DNA of 33,029 nucleotides, taken from contig NZ_MJEI01000056.1 of assembly GCF_002095395.1 (NCBI RefSeq), forward strand, positions 1 through 33,029, read 5' to 3'. Source of the DNA: Williamsia sp. 1135. Lineage in GTDB: Bacteria > Actinomycetota > Actinomycetes > Mycobacteriales > Mycobacteriaceae. The translations under genes and the position numbers were made by a program. Each line of letters opens with the position of its first letter. The first letter of the stretch is position 1. This document shows positions 25,120 to 32,567 of this stretch, one piece after another. The notes below the pieces were generated by a model. It made no database searches. It saw only the letters and a list, made by a program, of their open reading frames with translations, and was not told where the DNA came from.

Positions 25120-26009
25120 TGAAATGGCTCCTAGGTGGTGGCGGGAATGATGACGGGTTTGATGCACTCGTCGAGCTTGGCTGAGAAGATGTGGTACCCC
25201 TCAGCGATGTGGTCCAGCGGAATACGTTGGGTGATAACGTCACTGGGCTTGATGTGCCCGTTTTTGACATGTTCGAACAGTCGCGGCCATTGCCGTTTGA
25301 CCGGACACTGATTTATCTGAAGCGTCAGTCCCTTGTTCATCGCGTCGCCGAACTTCACGGCGCTGAACATCGGCCCGTACGCACCCAGGACCGCGACTGT
25401 GCCACCTTTGCGGACCGAGTCGATGGCCCAGTTCAGGGCGACCGGGGATCCGCCTTGCAGTTTGAACTTGGCTGCGGTGACGTGCTGGAGAAAGTTGCCG
25501 TCGGCCTCGGCGCCGACGGCTTCGATGACCACGTCCGCTCCGAGGTAATCGGTAGCCTTCTTCATCTGGACCACGATGTCGTCGTATTCGGCGAAGTTGT
25601 AGGTCTCGGCGTGGGCGAACGTCCGCGCCTTCTCGAGCCGGTATTCCAGGTGGTCGATGACGATGACCCGGCCAGCGCCCATGAACCAGGCTGATTTTGC
25701 CGCGAACAGTCCGACCGGGCCGGCGCCGAACACGGCGACGGTGTCTCCTTCGCTGATACTGCCCAGTTGGGCGCCGAAGTAGCCGGTGGCCAGGGCGTCG
25801 GTGAGCATCAGGGCGTCATCCTCGTCGAGCCAGTCCGGGATGATGGTGGGTCCGACGTCGGCGAAAGGGACGCGCATGAGCTCGGCCTGCCCGCCGTCGT
25901 AACCACCGCACGTGTGGGAGTACCCGTAGATGCCGCCGACAGCGGTGGCATTGGGGTTGACGTTGTGACAGTTCGAGTAGAGGCCGCGCACACAGAAGTA
26001 GCACGCCGG

Positions 26010-26853
26010 TGGCGTCGAGCGCCGCGCACCACACGTGTTCGGGCAGCAGGGCGATCGCGTTGCGGACCCGGGCATCGAGGTCGAAGCCGACCGAGTACTC
26101 CACGCTGAACCCGGTGCGGGCGTTCAGTGCGGTGATGTGGTCGAGCACATCGTGAGTCGAACCCGCGCCATCGATGGTGATCAGCAACCGCCGCCGGTAC
26201 TTCGCGGGGACCGCGGCGATGGCGGCGTCGATGATCGCGATGTGATCGGCTGCCGTGTTCGAACCCGCGCTGCCGGTACGGGGGATGATCGCCAGCAACT
26301 CGCCGGTGTTGTCGCACCACGCCGTCAACGGATGAAATCCGTAGCCGCCCTTGAAATTGCCTGCCGCGCACTGCTTGTCCGAGTAGGAGGTGACCAGGGT
26401 GGCGTCGATCCGGATCGCGATCACACCCTCGATATCGCCGTAGCAGGTGCCTACCGGCGCGATCTTGCCGTGCCGGGCCGCGATCAGCTGCCACACCCGG
26501 CGGCGGACCCGGTTACGTGCCGCGGTGAGATTCTTCAGCGCCTTCGCGTCGATCTCGTTCAGCGAACGCCACAGCGTGGACATCGAGGCCACCGGCCCGA
26601 ACACCCGCTGCTGGTCGCCGAGGACCACGATGTCGGACATGCAGGTAGCACCGTCGGCGATCGACACCGCCAGATCGCACACGACCCGGCCCCGGTCATG
26701 GATCACATCCGGGCGAACAAGGGCATCCGATAACGCGTTGGTCAGGCCCGTGGCGTCGGCGAGCATCCGAGTGACGACGCTGCCGCTGTGCGACACGACG
26801 TCGTCGCCGCGGACTTCGATGTCCAGGCCCCGGGACCAATTAGTATCCTGCAT
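26010..26853 (-). pseudogene. IS1380 family transposase, C-terminally truncated
   Basis: From ATG 26853 the protein starts MQDTNWSRGLDIEVRGD. It continues with an IS1380-type N-terminal region, MSTLWRSLNEID, the catalytic core IRIDATLVTSYSDKQ (first Asp) with NFKGGYGFHPLTAW, and LITIDGAGSTHDVLDHI (second Asp). At LLPEHVWCAALDATGVL the sequence runs into dehydrogenase DNA, and the open frame goes on meaninglessly to 25816. The usual length is about 450 residues, so roughly the last third with the catalytic Glu is missing. It is not active by itself. Confidence 0.82.
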
Positions 26854-26973
26854 GCGAGAAGTGCGCCCGTTCTGTGGATTGCGGAGTCGTCGAGAAACCC
26901 CATTATCCCTGAGCTGACGCACTTTTCGCGTACACGACACCACAGTCATGCCAACCCACGTGAATAATCCAGG
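26010..26973 (-). mobile_element. 3'-truncated IS1380-type element inside the dehydrogenase
   Basis: The element runs from a terminal end at about 26973 (minus-strand CCTGGATTATTCACG) to a junction with dehydrogenase sequence near 26010. It encodes the transposase start and about 280 codons. The distal transposase part and the second terminal repeat are gone. Loss of about 200 bp of dehydrogenase sequence at the same junction suggests insertion followed by an adjacent deletion. Exact ends are estimated to within a few bases. Confidence 0.75.
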
Positions 26974-27050
26974 TTGGGGTGTTCGATCGGAGGAATGGGC
27001 TTGTCCTCGACCCTGATTTTGTACGGACCTCGATAGACCATCGATTTCAT

Positions 27051-27612
27051 GTTCTCTCCCGCTGGATTTCTTGTGTGTACAGCCGCGGTGGTCTCGGCGG
27101 GTGTCACGCGTCGGTCACGTCTCGCGCTATGTGCGATGCATCGGCGATGGGTTATTGCTGCGCCCGGTATGACGAAACATGCTGGCTCCATTCACAAAAT
27201 AGCCACCAAATGTGTGCCCGCAAGCTGGAGACACCGATAGCGTGCACACGAGTGCATGGTTGGGAGGCGAGCCAGGGTCAGACCCGCGCCATGGCCGCCG
27301 TAGCGCACCTAAAGCACCCAAGAACACGAAACAGGACGATTCCCGACCGTCACTTGGGATGTCGCCAGTATCCCCCCGCCCCGGCGAGTTCAAACGCGAG
27401 TGAGCCATGAAGGTTTATCGCGCCTTGATGAAGGGCATTAAAAAACACAGCCATACAAAATGCCGTGGCATTCTCGCGTTCGATTACGTCGGCACCTCGT
27501 CGTGCCTGTGGCCGACTCAGTACGAGGAGCTACCCATGTACGTCGGCTGATCAGGTCCATCAACCTGGCCGAGCGTCAAGAGCTGCCCACAACTCGGGAG
27601 TCCTTCGCCTTC
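27051..27612. other. 562-bp intergenic region, no gene recognised
   Basis: This should hold the original dehydrogenase promoter next to 27050. It contains a lower-GC patch (27410-27475) with the palindrome AATGCC-GT-GGCATT at 27459-27472. It also has GAGGAG placed before an ATG at 27535 that encodes only four residues before TGA. The latter might be the start of a lost gene. I found no RNA gene or element ends. Confidence 0.4.
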
Positions 27613-28497
27613 TCAGCTGGGTTGGTTCTCGCGCTGTGACCGTTGGTAGCCGACTTCGGACGGTTCTCGCTCGCCGTATTTTCGGACTCCGAATGTGGAG
27701 ACCATGGATCGGTCGAGGTCGACCAGGCGCAGCGGCGTCGACCCGGCGTAAGTGGCAACTGCCACTCGGGTCGCGAGTTGCAGTGGCCGTGAGGGGTGCG
27801 GTAGGTCGTGAACCTGCCGGAGATTCGGTGGACAGAACGCCGAGATGATGTGGTCCGCGTACGGCCTCAGGAGTTTGGGCAGGACTCGCTCTGCGAACGC
27901 CTCGATCAGCGAGCGAGCCACGGCACGACCCTCAGTGGTCGGTGCGAACTCTTGTTGCTCGTAGGACCGTGCCCATCTCTCGAGCGCTTCGCGTGTTTCG
28001 GGCAGGCCGTCGAGACCCTGCAGTTCGGCCACCGAACGCCAGAAGCGCCACTGCGCTTCCAATTCTGTTGGGGTGAAGGGGGAGTGCGCGAGGTCCGAGG
28101 TGATCCGGTGTGGATCGAGTGCAAGGGTCGAGAGCGTATACAACGAGTCGTCGTTGCGGATCGGGAAATGCGCGTGGATCTGGTTCAGGCGCGCGATCCA
28201 GGCACGTCCGGTCGGCGACGTCGGTCCGTGATCGAGCAATTGCCCGAAGAACAGCAGGGTGTCGTCGTTGCGCCTCGCCGGGAACTGCATGATGTCCCCA
28301 CCTCCGCGGCGGTACAGGATTCGCGCCATGGTCGGAACCGCCACCTGTTTCATAAGCGCGACAGTGAACAGGGCGTAGGTGAGAGATGGATTGCCGTGCA
28401 AGGTGACCAGGGACAGCCGAGCTATTTCGGCGGCGTCGACGACCGGATCCAACGTGCTGATCCGTCGGGAGACGAGGTGACCGGGACGTAGTTTCAT
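27613..28497 (-). CDS. DUF2236 (MpaB/Lcp-type) oxygenase-like protein
   Basis: The 294-residue all-helical protein is of the DUF2236 family, which includes the rubber oxygenase Lcp and the fungal MpaB. Recognisable parts are RRNDDTLLFFGQLLDHG, GRAWIARLNQIHAHFPIRNDD (His in the family's conserved position), TLALDPHRI and WRFWRSVAELQGLDGLPETREALERW. Lcp cleaves polyisoprene double bonds with haem and O2, and MpaB cleaves a farnesyl chain. Function in most bacterial members is unknown. ATG 28497 overlaps the stop of the linalool-dehydratase-like gene by 4 nt, so they are co-translated. With that partner, a terpenoid or isoprenoid substrate is a reasonable inference. The extension to 28764 is noise. 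Confidence 0.87.
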   Translation of the reverse strand: MKLRPGHLVSRRISTLDPVVDAAEIARLSLVTLHGNPSLTYALFTVALMKQVAVPTMARILYRRGGGDIMQFPARRNDDTLLFFGQLLDHGPTSPTGRAWIARLNQIHAHFPIRNDDSLYTLSTLALDPHRITSDLAHSPFTPTELEAQWRFWRSVAELQGLDGLPETREALERWARSYEQQEFAPTTEGRAVARSLIEAFAERVLPKLLRPYADHIISAFCPPNLRQVHDLPHPSRPLQLATRVAVATYAGSTPLRLVDLDRSMVSTFGVRKYGEREPSEVGYQRSQRENQPS

Positions 28498-30421
28498 GAG
28501 GTGGGCTCCATTCGGACAACGGTGCGTCCTTCGATGTCGAGATCTATGCGTGCTCGGCCGTGGCGGTCTGTTTCGACCGTCGAGTCGAGGGTTCCCACCA
28601 CCGCGTATCGGCGGTCCAGCCGGAGTTGATCGATTACCAGCGTCGTGCGAACGCCACCATCGCCGGGATAGAGGACCAAGTCCAGCGCCTGACCATCGGT
28701 GACGGCGCGGGCCACCAGAACATCCGGGTATGCGGCCTCGGCGAGACAAGGGCCCGCGAGCCAATGGGCGGGTAGGCCCGCGCCGATCAAGTCTCGATTG
28801 GCCGCCGGCCGCGCGAACCGTGAGAGCAGCGAGTACAGGTTGCCCTGCGTGGACAATCCTTCATACCGTGCGACGCCCGCCTGGCGTTCGACGTGTTCCT
28901 TCGCATCGACGTACGCGAACGCGGAGTCTGCAACGTCGTCATCCCCCATCTCGCGAGCGGTCAGCGAGAGAAAAGTCTGGGCGAAAGAGTCACTACCGAA
29001 CGAGTAGTTGCCGACGTCGCAACGGTTGGCCGCCGTCCGCGGGAGAAGAAAACGCTCCCCATCGAACTCCAACGAGTTTCGTCTCGTCAGCCACCACGCC
29101 CGATGCGCCTGATCGGGCAGAAAGGCGTTCATCCAGTAGGTCGTCGGGAGACTGACGCCTTCGCTGGCCCAGATGTTCCATGACAGCCCCAGGCTCTCGT
29201 TGCGAACACCGATGAGTTTGCCGTCCGGGCGCGCGAACTCGTGTTCGTACGCTCGCGCGATCGCCGCGCTGAGATCGGCATGGAAGTCCGTACCGTGTAA
29301 CCGATCATGCGCGATGAGGGTGTTGACTCCGAAGGTGTTGCAGACGGGGTAGATCCAGCGTGGTTCGCAGGAGAACAGTGTGTAGGCCGACCGGCGCATG
29401 TTGCGGTGGATGGATTTTGCCAGGTCGTGGAAGTCGTGCCGATAATGTTGGCTGTCGGACCAGGTGTAGGTCAGGCCTCCTGGCCTGGAGAATCGGTTGT
29501 CGCCGAAGCTCTCGTACATCCCGACCGCGGCTCCTTGCCATCCGGTCAGCATCACGTTGTCGTTGTTGTCGACCGGATCGCGGCCGAGAGACAGTCGGCC
29601 CCAGGCATTTTCCATTGCCCAGTAACCCCAGACCCGCTTGTCCCCCATTTTGGGGATCGACCTCTCCTGCGCCTCGGCCAGATCCCCGGAGAACGCCGGT
29701 GTCCGCGTGTAGCGGTACATCGACAGCGCGTAGCCCAGTACACTGAGCTGATAGCGAAGTGCTGCCTCACGGAACTGGTCGCGGCGATCAAACCCGGCGA
29801 ACTCCGACAATGGTTGCAACGCAAGGTCGAGCGCAAAGCGAAAATGCGCCAGGTCATCTGCCGAAGCCTCCCCAACTGGCGGTTCGGGTGACGACGGCAC
29901 CGCAGTCTGAAAATACGTGACATCCGCCAGTTCGGCGTTCACCGACCGCGCAATTGCCACTTGATGACGGTGACGCAGGACGTGAACACCGAACGCAACC
30001 ACCACCACACCCGGAACCAGGCCGGCGGTGACAGCGATCCAAGTGACCGACAGGTGAGTATGAGAATGAGTGACAGCCGCTTCGAGCAGAAACGCCAACC
30101 ATACGATGATCGGGGCGATGACCGCACCGATCATCCACCACACCAGAACAGCGAGCCCAAACGCGGCCACTGCCATCGCCGCGTGCGCGACATGCCCCGA
30201 TGCCAGGTGACCGCCGCCGGGAAACAGCAGCCCCATGGCCGCGACGCCCGCCACATGGTTGCCCATGGCGGTGACCAGTAGTCCACCGGTCCACAAAGTG
30301 CGTACACCGCAGCAACTCTGCGGAACTTTGCGCGGGTCACCGGAGTCAGCAACGGCCGCGACGTCGGCAAAAGACGCGCTGGAACCCACCGACCGGGCCG
30401 CACAACCGGCGTCGCCCTCAT
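28494..30421 (-). CDS. Membrane-anchored linalool dehydratase/isomerase-like protein
   Basis: Three or four N-terminal membrane helices precede a domain of about 430 residues like Castellaniella linalool dehydratase/isomerase: KMGDKRVWGYW, GRDPVDNNDNVMLTGW and DRLHGTD. CEPRWIYPVC keeps the two active-site cysteines at their 9-residue spacing, but the Ldi MYKGH histidine is Trp here. Ldi interconverts linalool, geraniol and myrcene without cofactor. The start is uncertain. ATG 30421 overlaps the small gene's stop as TGATG and reads KFRRVAAVYAL before the first helix, but needs one extra base near 30293-30297 to join the main frame. Without that, GTG 30458 begins in poor sequence. The likely full protein is about 642 residues. 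Confidence 0.85.
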
Positions 30422-30579
30422 CACCGGACCACCGAGATCTGCAGCTCCGGTGTGACAACCCGCCGTGCGGCCGGCGGCATCGCCGTCGCCGACGAGACCT
30501 CTCCCCCGGTGCACGAGGCGATGACGAAGAGTTTGCGCAGGCCGACCATCAGCAGCAGCAAGATCGTGCAACACAGCAT
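30421..30579 (-). CDS. 52-residue membrane peptide heading the Ldi operon
   Basis: The peptide starts MLCCTILLLLMVGLRKLF, a single membrane helix followed by a basic turn, then a polar tail of about 30 residues ending ISVVR. GGAGG lies 5 nt before ATG 30579, an excellent ribosome-binding site. Its stop overlaps the ATG of the next gene by one base (TGATG), giving tight translational coupling. The predicted transcription start is about 34 nt upstream. I know no family; a small subunit or membrane chaperone of the Ldi-like protein is one guess. The two cysteines at positions 3-4 are close to the membrane face. Confidence 0.7.
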   Translation of the reverse strand: MLCCTILLLLMVGLRKLFVIASCTGGEVSSATAMPPAARRVVTPELQISVVR

Positions 30580-30593
30580 CGGGACCTCCATCT

Positions 30594-30648
30594 GAAACCG
30601 CATCGTTTCGGTTTCGGTTAGCCTAGGTGGGACGCCGCTCGCCGTCAA
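30594..30648 (-). promoter_or_regulatory. Promoter and overlapping operator of the Ldi operon
   Basis: On the minus strand TTGACG (30648-30643) and TAGGCT (30625-30620) are a -35/-10 pair with 17-bp spacing, so transcription should begin near 30613. The inverted repeat GAAACCG (30594-30600) / CGGTTTC (30609-30615), 8-bp spacer, covers that start point. This is classical repressor placement, and the divergent TetR gene is the obvious source. Confidence 0.65.
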
Positions 30649-30699: not shown

Positions 30700-31341
30700 G
30701 TGACGCCGACCACCGAGCCCGCCGGGCGACACTACGGTGGGCAAAGCGCTACAGAGCGCCGACTATCGCGCAGACATCGGCTGATTGAAGCCGTCCTCGA
30801 CCTCGTCCACGAGGGCGGTATCGAATCGCTGAGCATAGGAGCGATCTGTGAGCACGCATCGGTCTCCAAACGGCATCTCTACCTGAGCTTTTCCAATCTC
30901 GACGAGCTCACCGGAGAGGCACTGACCGACGTGCTCACACAGGCGGCCGATCGAATCGCCGCGGCAACCGCGAAACTCGACAGGGAAGCGTCGAGAACCC
31001 GACTGATCGAAGTCGCGGTCGAAGAGATCCTCATCGCGTTCGACGATCCACGGGTCGCACGTCTGTATCTCGAGGCGCCCGGAAACCGCGGGCTCCGCGC
31101 AGCGCGAGACCATGCGGTGGCCCGTTTCGTGAGCCAACTGCTGACCCTCCTCGCCAGCGACCGTGCCGATCACCCGCGAGCTCAGCTCATCGCCCGCGTG
31201 CTGGTCGGAGGTACCACCGAGGGGGTCGCGCTCTGGCTGCGCGGCGACGTGACGCTCGAACGCGGGGAGCTGGTGGCGACACTCGCCGCCCTGGGCGTCG
31301 ACGCGGTCAACCGTATCCTCGAGTTGGACCCACCACGCTGA
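30700..31341 (+). CDS. TetR family regulator of the Ldi operon
   Basis: The 213-residue protein has the TetR HTH at about 25-70 (RHRLIEAVLDLVHEGGIESLSIGAICEHASVSKRHLYLSFSN is split over helices 1-4; SKRHLYLSF is the recognition end). A typical helical ligand-binding domain follows. It is divergent from the Ldi-like/DUF2236 operon and separated by 120 bp containing the inverted repeat at 30594-30615. The inducer would be the pathway substrate. GTG 30700 has no ribosome-binding site; CACTAT at 30688-30693 would start a leaderless mRNA on that codon. Confidence 0.92.
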   Translation: MTPTTEPAGRHYGGQSATERRLSRRHRLIEAVLDLVHEGGIESLSIGAICEHASVSKRHLYLSFSNLDELTGEALTDVLTQAADRIAAATAKLDREASRTRLIEVAVEEILIAFDDPRVARLYLEAPGNRGLRAARDHAVARFVSQLLTLLASDRADHPRAQLIARVLVGGTTEGVALWLRGDVTLERGELVATLAALGVDAVNRILELDPPR

Positions 31342-31424: not shown

Positions 31425-32567
31425 TCATGCCGCCTCGCTGCTTTGATCGATCAGTTTGAGTTGGCGGTGGAGGTCCCGGCGGGTGTATTTCCAGGCGAAG
31501 GGTTCGGCGGTGCGGTTGTAGCGTTCGGCGAAGGTGTGCAACCGGTTCTCGACTGAGGTGAGGTCGGGAAAGTCATTGGGCGTGAGGACTTTGCGTTGGA
31601 CGATGGAAAAGTAGATCTCGACTTGGTTGAGCCATGATGCGTGCACCGGGGTGTGCACCATGACCGCGTTCGGGTATCGGGCGGTGAGGCGGTCGATCGA
31701 TGCTTGTCCGCGGTGCGAGGAGCCGTTGTCGACGACCCAAAACACCCGGTCGGCGGACGCGTACGGTTCGCTCGTCATGACCTGATCGACGAGGGCGGTG
31801 AACTCGGTGATGCCGGTGCTTTGCTCGCAGCGGCCGAAGACCCGTGCGGTGTGGACGTCGTAGGCAGCGAGGTAGGTGAGCGCGCCGCGGCGGCGGTAGT
31901 CGTGGCTGACGCGCATCGGGCGACCTGGTGCGGCGGCGGTGGTGCGGTGGCAGCGGTCGCGGGCTTGGATCGACGGCTTTTCATCGGCCGAGATCACAAA
32001 CTCGTTGCTGCCCAACGGTTTGCCTGCGTAGCGGCGTGCGTACAGGTCGAGAACGACAGATGCTCTCATCTCGAAGTTCGGGTCGCGGGCGGCGATCCAG
32101 GAGCGATGCTGCCACGGTTTGAGCGCATCCTCGTCCAGCCACCGGCGCACCGTCGACACCGAGACGGTCATGCCGTCGCGTGCGAGTTGGGCGGCGAGTT
32201 CCGGGGTGGACCACCGTGCGATCGGAATATCGTGATCGGCCGGGATCTGACACGCCCACGCTTTCACTGCAGCGATGTCAGCGGGGGTGTAGATCGGTGG
32301 CCGGCCCGACCGTGGTGCGTCGGCGAGGGCATCGATACCGTGATGGTGGAACCGGCTGCGCCACTTACGGACCGTGTCGGGATGAACGTCGAGTTCGATG
32401 GCGATACTTGCGTTGGTGCAGCCGTCCGCGGCGAGCAGCACGATCAGAGACCGCAGCACTGTCTTCTGCGGTGTCGACCCACACCTCACCCATGTTTCGA
32501 GAACCTGACGGTCGCTGGTGGACAGGACGATCACGCAGGCCGAGGGTCGAGCGGTTTTGTCACTCAT
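31425..32567 (-). CDS. IS630 family transposase
   Basis: The 380-residue DDE transposase has an N-terminal winged/HTH part (TNASIAIELDVHPDTVRKWRSRF, DALADAPRSGRPP) and a second HTH (WSTPELAAQLARDGMTVSVSTV). The catalytic triad is Asp in SADEKPSIQ, Asp in VVDNGSSHRG and Glu in WLNQVEIYFS. The frame is intact from ATG 32567 to a stop next to the left terminal repeat, and nothing suggests inactivation. Its promoter must lie in the 100 bp shared with the passenger gene. Confidence 0.95.
   Translation of the reverse strand: MSDKTARPSACVIVLSTSDRQVLETWVRCGSTPQKTVLRSLIVLLAADGCTNASIAIELDVHPDTVRKWRSRFHHHGIDALADAPRSGRPPIYTPADIAAVKAWACQIPADHDIPIARWSTPELAAQLARDGMTVSVSTVRRWLDEDALKPWQHRSWIAARDPNFEMRASVVLDLYARRYAGKPLGSNEFVISADEKPSIQARDRCHRTTAAAPGRPMRVSHDYRRRGALTYLAAYDVHTARVFGRCEQSTGITEFTALVDQVMTSEPYASADRVFWVVDNGSSHRGQASIDRLTARYPNAVMVHTPVHASWLNQVEIYFSIVQRKVLTPNDFPDLTSVENRLHTFAERYNRTAEPFAWKYTRRDLHRQLKLIDQSSEAA

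Follow-up and report, generated by a model that had tools for sequence, protein, structure and literature searches.

An operon joining a dicysteine membrane peptide, a membrane-anchored linalool dehydratase-like protein and a DUF2236 oxygenase behind a candidate TetR operator in Williamsia and related actinobacteria

What might a protein resembling linalool dehydratase/isomerase (Ldi) do in an actinobacterial membrane, encoded between a small peptide and an oxygenase? The question is raised by a stretch of 33,029 bases, here called the window, which is one whole contig (NZ_MJEI01000056.1; G000:C107) of the 5.98-Mb genome of Williamsia sp. 1135. On its minus strand, within positions 27613-30591, lie a gene for a small peptide with two adjacent cysteines (the CC-peptide), a gene for an Ldi-like protein and a gene for a DUF2236 oxygenase, and a gene for a TetR-family regulator is divergent from them. 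Comparison of loci at the sequence level establishes that the CC-peptide, the helix-borne enzyme of Ldi fold and the DUF2236 oxygenase are translationally coupled and are conserved in several genera behind a common palindrome.

Relatives of the Ldi-like protein were collected by scanning the genome collection once for two short peptide patterns, a procedure that relatives lacking the patterns would escape, and 25 loci were obtained. Twelve of them (L010-L021, from Williamsia, Rhodococcus, Nocardia and Aeromicrobium) were designated type A and the other 13 type B; in a tree that omits L048, includes one artefactual row taken from the wrong frame (L026b) and has a bootstrap that is not settled, each type lies to one side of a branch. 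All 12 type-A loci contain matches to the TetR, Ldi and DUF2236 proteins, arranged as a divergent TetR gene followed by the MxCC peptide, Ldi and DUF2236, and in every one the TetR relative (40-97% identical) is on the strand opposite to the operon. This is the conserved co-occurrence on which a sequence-only reading of the window had staked its proposal of an operon. Among the copies found, that of Williamsia soli C17 is the closest, its Ldi being 92% identical to that of the window.

The junctions between the genes are equally regular. Between the CC-peptide and Ldi genes a 4-nucleotide overlapping start is available in 12/12 type-A loci, with L010 allowing a 1-nucleotide ATG as well; between Ldi and DUF2236 such a start is present in all 11 parsed type-A loci, L013 allowing a +2 start too. 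In L014 this second junction escaped the parsing script; it reads GTGA, and the 4-nucleotide start was used for this locus in the DUF2236 alignment. Judged from these junctions, the coupling of the genes by overlaps is not due to chance. For the window itself the sequence-only reading had described a 1-nucleotide overlap at TGATG and a 4-nucleotide overlap at ATGA. The second stands, as the Ldi and DUF2236 genes share the four nucleotides 28494-28497; the first does not, as the ATG of TGATG (30423-30419) is not in the Ldi frame, a discrepancy that is taken up below.

The divergent regulator (30700-31341, plus strand, 213 amino acids) matches the TetR_N helix-turn-helix family PF00440 with 29 bits against a cut-off of 24 (E 9.3e-07). 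A palindrome of 22 bp, GAAACC...GGTTTC, at 30594-30615, 36 nucleotides 5′ of the MLCC start of the CC-peptide, is a candidate for its operator. When the 12 type-A loci and the window were considered together, the form G[GA]AAC-N12-GTT[CT]C was found 5′ of the CC-peptide start in 11 of the 13 regions, at -36 in seven and at -39, -61, -61 and -62 in the remaining four, and L013 and L014, without the exact motif, have imperfect palindromes related to it at -36 and -37. The 12 type-A loci together span 166,782 bases, and in them the motif was found 10 times, always at this place before the peptide. Regarded as mere palindromes the sites differ in strength from locus to locus, 0 to 89 of 500 shuffles being equally good; since the palindrome alone clearly beats shuffles in only some loci, the argument for an operator rests on common sequence, position and uniqueness. 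The TetR switch envisaged beforehand is thus supported by a divergent regulator gene with a common operator-like palindrome, which is best called a candidate operator.

The Ldi domain encoded in the window matches PF18566 with 262.4 bits against a cut-off of 26.1 (E 9.1e-78), the L010 orthologue scoring 269.9 bits, and it contains the two sequences pointed out in the sequence-only reading, CEPRWIYPVC, with both active-site cysteines, and DRLHGTD. The identity of the protein was borne out by a model of the L010 orthologue (predicted local distance difference test score, pLDDT, 90.0; predicted template-modelling score, pTM, 0.90), which has the Ldi fold; its 27 best PDB matches are all the Ldi of Castellaniella defragrans, with template-modelling scores (TMt) of 0.72-0.80. 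C352 and C361 are invariant in 25/25 aligned proteins and align with the catalytic pair C171/C180 of the C. defragrans structure 5hlr, and M291 aligns with M125 of Ldi. D199, a possible counterpart of Asp39, a residue with a role in linalool dehydratase/isomerase, is also invariant in the 25 aligned proteins and falls outside the hidden Markov model (HMM) alignment to 5hlr. Compared with the C. defragrans enzyme (5hlr, 5g1u), the operon Ldi thus keeps the fold, both catalytic cysteines and M125; it differs in an identity of about 20%, in a Trp in place of His129, in an extra C-terminal beta region that the model shows, and in having membrane helices whereas the C. defragrans enzyme is a secreted soluble protein.

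Four N-terminal helices (residues 27-53, 78-98, 102-118 and 126-165) precede the Ldi domain in the L010 model, and hydropathy gives three or four membrane segments in the type-A Ldi proteins (L010-L021). The fusion of Ldi to membrane helices that the window had suggested is therefore seen in the orthologues by model and hydropathy; as a novelty it had to be given up, since the Lis of Thauera linaloolentis 47Lol is already membrane-anchored (PMC4791888; further literature background in PMC6600392, PMC5522427, PMC6311187 and PMC3774712). According to PMC4791888, Lis is a protein of 644 amino acids, against 642 for the operon Ldi, with a cytoplasmic Ldi domain after predicted N-terminal membrane helices and a requirement for a reductant; this likeness is drawn from the published description. 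The same paper describes lis as isolated from adjacent genes, whereas the operon Ldi is coupled to the CC-peptide and DUF2236 genes, beside TetR.

Hydropathy revealed no membrane segments in the 13 type-B Ldi proteins, and each of these loci has a membrane partner nearby. In nine it is a DUF5134-like membrane gene directly downstream of Ldi (L022-L027, L030, L031 and L034, the last at L034:6897-8009); seven of the nine built the model used, that of L031 is broken over two frames, and Pfam was run on L034 only. The remaining four have a CC-protein with a long extension, hydrophobic by eye, and in some other clades Ldi helices and a CC extension occur together. Homology of the three membrane modules, namely the Ldi helices, the CC-protein extension and DUF5134, was unsupported, profile comparison by hhalign giving probabilities below 1%. 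The DUF5134-like proteins beside membrane-free Ldi are, by eye, rich in His and Met.

The CC-peptide of the window (30421-30579, minus strand, 52 amino acids from the MLCC start, with an ATG upstream at 30591 also open) has no Pfam or NCBIfam match, the printed literature not having been searched for it beyond these scans. When 24 short copies were aligned, M-x-C-C and P-x-A proved invariant; for the CC this holds by construction, since rows were chosen by the CC pattern. The alignment excludes longer copies, some of which begin with V. The layout is that of the CC, then a hydrophobic stretch and then often Arg-rich residues. Such a peptide is encoded in 24 of the 25 pattern-scan loci, the exception being L031. 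An HMM built from 22 copies was run on 20 other regions, selected around other Ldi genes and amounting to 330 kb, and gave 14 matches at E<=3.1e-5, each of them immediately upstream of an Ldi gene (in the case of L086 this placement was judged from the position of the open reading frame, ORF), followed by a next-best match at E 0.027. With 14 of these 20 wide loci positive, the notion that a CC-peptide always accompanies Ldi was rejected, and no convincing CC-peptide was found near small further loci such as L035-L037, L043, L054 and L057.

The association was also surveyed in 401 genomes of the family, 34 of them Ldi-positive. A CC match at E<1e-5 was found in 20 of the 34 and in one of the 367 others, where the contig ends inside the CC gene. 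The figure of 20/34 is not independent, since 12 of those 20 genomes gave a row to the CC model, and that of 1/367 is unaffected; matches with E values above 1e-5 were set aside as noise, among them three that adjoin Ldi (G329, 8.5e-5; G343, 1.2e-5; G387, 4e-4). Altogether 23 of the 25 CC matches at E<1e-5 adjoin Ldi. In Skermania (G033; L104:2605-3440) the CC-peptide gene lies ∼14 kb from Ldi and, by eye, adjoins a TetR-like gene. Long CC-proteins (L038:183-830, L051:1765-2457, L066:278-838 and others) have a C-terminal extension whose helices, by eye, often contain a D-x-H motif and FHG, and Pfam found no family in two such extensions (L051, L065).

The third gene (27613-28497, minus strand, 294 amino acids) encodes a protein that matches PF09995 with 58.1 bits against a cut-off of 23 (E 1.8e-15); among three scanned orthologues L016 and L018 match the same family and L019 matches no family at E 0.001. 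The assignment to the Lcp/MpaB family made from the sequence alone therefore holds at the level of PF09995, and needs amending as to the nearest solved relative. This is the trans-anethole oxygenase of Stenotrophomonas maltophilia (8s1j), which is related by HMM at E 2e-21 with 21% identity and was the closest match to a model of the L010 protein (pLDDT 86), with TMq values of 0.80-0.82. The latex clearing protein Lcp (5o1l, 5o1m) came second by fold, at 0.52-0.63, and gave no HMM match up to E 10, and was thus rejected as the nearest relative. The likeness to trans-anethole oxygenase extends over the entire length of the fold and includes the R..DT and IH motifs; the use of aromatic substrates is known for the Stenotrophomonas enzyme only. 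R76, T80 and H108 are invariant in 13/13 DUF2236 proteins. In the alignment to trans-anethole oxygenase they pair with an R, a T and an H of that enzyme; with R164, T168 and H198 of Lcp, which are its haem-site residues, the agreement is by spacing only. The operon protein begins MKLRPGHLVSRR, in which a secretion signal is not evident by eye. Beyond the pattern-scan loci, a DUF2236-like gene stands beside Ldi in 3 of the 20 wider regions, in varying order or orientation.

How well is this operon preserved in the window? Its Ldi gene (28494-30421, minus strand) carries the Ldi domain in a frame that ends at 28494 and is other than that opened by the ATG of TGATG; the latter frame stops after 96 codons, and the ATG was therefore rejected as the Ldi start. 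The same junction works in L010, where the 1-nucleotide ATG is in frame. Sister copies of Ldi (L006/L010 and L008/L011) are intact, open for 642 codons and encoding 642 amino acids. DNA alignments with L010 and L011 show the window to be one base short between 30296 and 30295, and the window Ldi is therefore frameshifted: by this comparison its copy is FRAMESHIFTED, with the frame lost at about codon 43. The gene is likely a pseudogene, an assembly error being a possible source of the missing base in place of a true lesion, and because of the frameshift the module is probably non-functional in the strain from which the window derives.

It is accordingly a rather probable view that the operon here is a dying remnant, in which Ldi has been lost by frameshift and only the TetR and DUF2236 genes may still be useful. 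Beyond the base missing at about 30295, this view accords with the substitutions in the last 595 codons of Ldi, in which synonymous and nonsynonymous changes number 11 and 14 along the branch to the window and 24 and 9 along that to L010 (Fisher p 0.033); with Y247D in the window, a position held by Tyr in 30/30 parsed relatives (50 loci were entered and 20 did not parse); and with the transposase genes that flank the operon on either side. An assembly error would equally give one missing base, however, and the frame of the Ldi domain is open apart from it; nor is there a clear excess of nonsynonymous changes in DUF2236 (synonymous to nonsynonymous 8:7 in the window against 17:5 in L010, p 0.16) or TetR (7:4 against 10:4).

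Directly behind the TetR gene is an IS630-family transposase gene (31425-32567), so that the operon is flanked by insertion elements. A gene resembling zinc alcohol/formaldehyde dehydrogenases appears to be split within 25131-27191, its N-terminus, identified by eye, lying at 26946-27191 and the remainder at 25131-26075; an IS1380-family transposase ORF (25816-26949) separates the two parts.

For the intact operon we tentatively propose a self-contained, TetR-controlled membrane module in which Ldi isomerises or dehydrates a hydrophobic allylic alcohol and the alkene is then cleaved, a reading that we hold as a serious possibility short of an expectation. A hydrophobic allylic alcohol would arrive at the membrane, relieve the TetR repressor and enter the Ldi domain on the cytoplasmic membrane face; there the C352/C361 pair would perform a Lis-like isomerisation or dehydration, and the DUF2236 enzyme would then split the resulting C=C bond with O2, giving carbonyl products. 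The CC-peptide would be a dedicated small subunit of Ldi that places or protects the membrane module, and it may keep the catalytic cysteines of Ldi reduced; published work states that Ldi needs reduced catalytic cysteines and that Lis is inactive without a reductant.

Several observations weigh against this proposal. None of the 13 type-B loci matches the window DUF2236 protein at E 1e-4, and the oxygenase is therefore not obligatory for Ldi. By the CC HMM no CC-peptide was found in 6 of the 20 wide regions, these being from other clades, nor was one found at the Ldi of Skermania itself, and in the Ldi relative at L048 the cysteine motif was not seen in the form searched. The position of His129, a catalytic residue of linalool dehydratase/isomerase, is Trp in 12/12 type-A and Tyr or Phe in 13/13 type-B loci, in the register of the alignment to 5hlr and with four listed loci that did not fit the pattern. 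Since it is Trp, type-A chemistry may differ from that of Ldi, and the loss warns against assuming linalool chemistry. Trans-anethole oxygenase has been described as flavin-dependent, so that the cofactor of the DUF2236 protein may be flavin or haem. Finally, outside the operon even the commonest gene cluster, one of major facilitator superfamily (MFS) transporters, was found in at most 3 of the 12 type-A flanks.

The absence of a wider common neighbourhood would also suit a different role, in which the Ldi-like protein would act in the manner of Lis, isomerising a polyprenol or another membrane lipid of the cell itself, and be concerned with envelope lipid turnover and not with plant-terpene catabolism. 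Ldi helices or a nearby membrane partner in 25/25 loci are in keeping with such a role, as is an Ldi-like gene on a plasmid of Aureimonas sp. AU20 (L063:5234-8383), which shares 4 nucleotides with a neighbour annotated uppS (polyprenyl diphosphate synthase) and is followed by one annotated as diacylglycerol kinase family. This pair is the only isoprenoid hint, pointing to polyprenol substrates; the Aureimonas protein is 30.5% identical, though, and a single case, and a distant relative on a Rhodococcus opacus plasmid (L062:1-13821) stands among genes for an MFS transporter, alcohol dehydrogenase (ADH), aldehyde dehydrogenase (ALDH), cytochrome P450 and ferredoxin, of which the dehydrogenase, P450 and ferredoxin genes are typical of catabolism. 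We regard the lipid role as unlikely. The R. opacus relative also adjoins a gene annotated as cytochrome c oxidase assembly protein. It is similarly doubtful that the pair acts on phenylpropanoid-type substrates, an alcohol being dehydrated to a conjugated aryl alkene and this cleaved to an aldehyde by an enzyme like trans-anethole oxygenase. Among solved structures that oxygenase stands nearest to the DUF2236 protein (HMM E 2e-21; TMq 0.82), and it turns propenyl aromatics into aldehydes, yet the identity is 21% and the characterised Ldi and Lis enzymes use monoterpene alcohols. Our proposal of an allylic alcohol module could be widened to suppose that actinobacterial Ldi enzymes are two-subunit membrane enzymes, whose MxCC...PxA partner would supply or guard the thiols needed by the Ldi cysteines, which three membrane modules unrelated in sequence would anchor, and whose DUF2236 branch would dehydrate and then cleave isoprenoid alcohols; so broad a scheme we put forward as a speculation with little claim to being right.

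Searches of the PMC library returned no paper naming 'linalool dehydratase' together with 'latex clearing protein' or with 'MpaB', while DUF2236 is named in 12 papers there, and within those searches the operon looks undescribed. If the proposal is true, the dicysteine small partner that tracks actinobacterial Ldi genes would be a new and testable component of this enzyme class, and its natural pairing with an oxygenase that cleaves C=C bonds would point to a path from alcohol to carbonyls within one operon.

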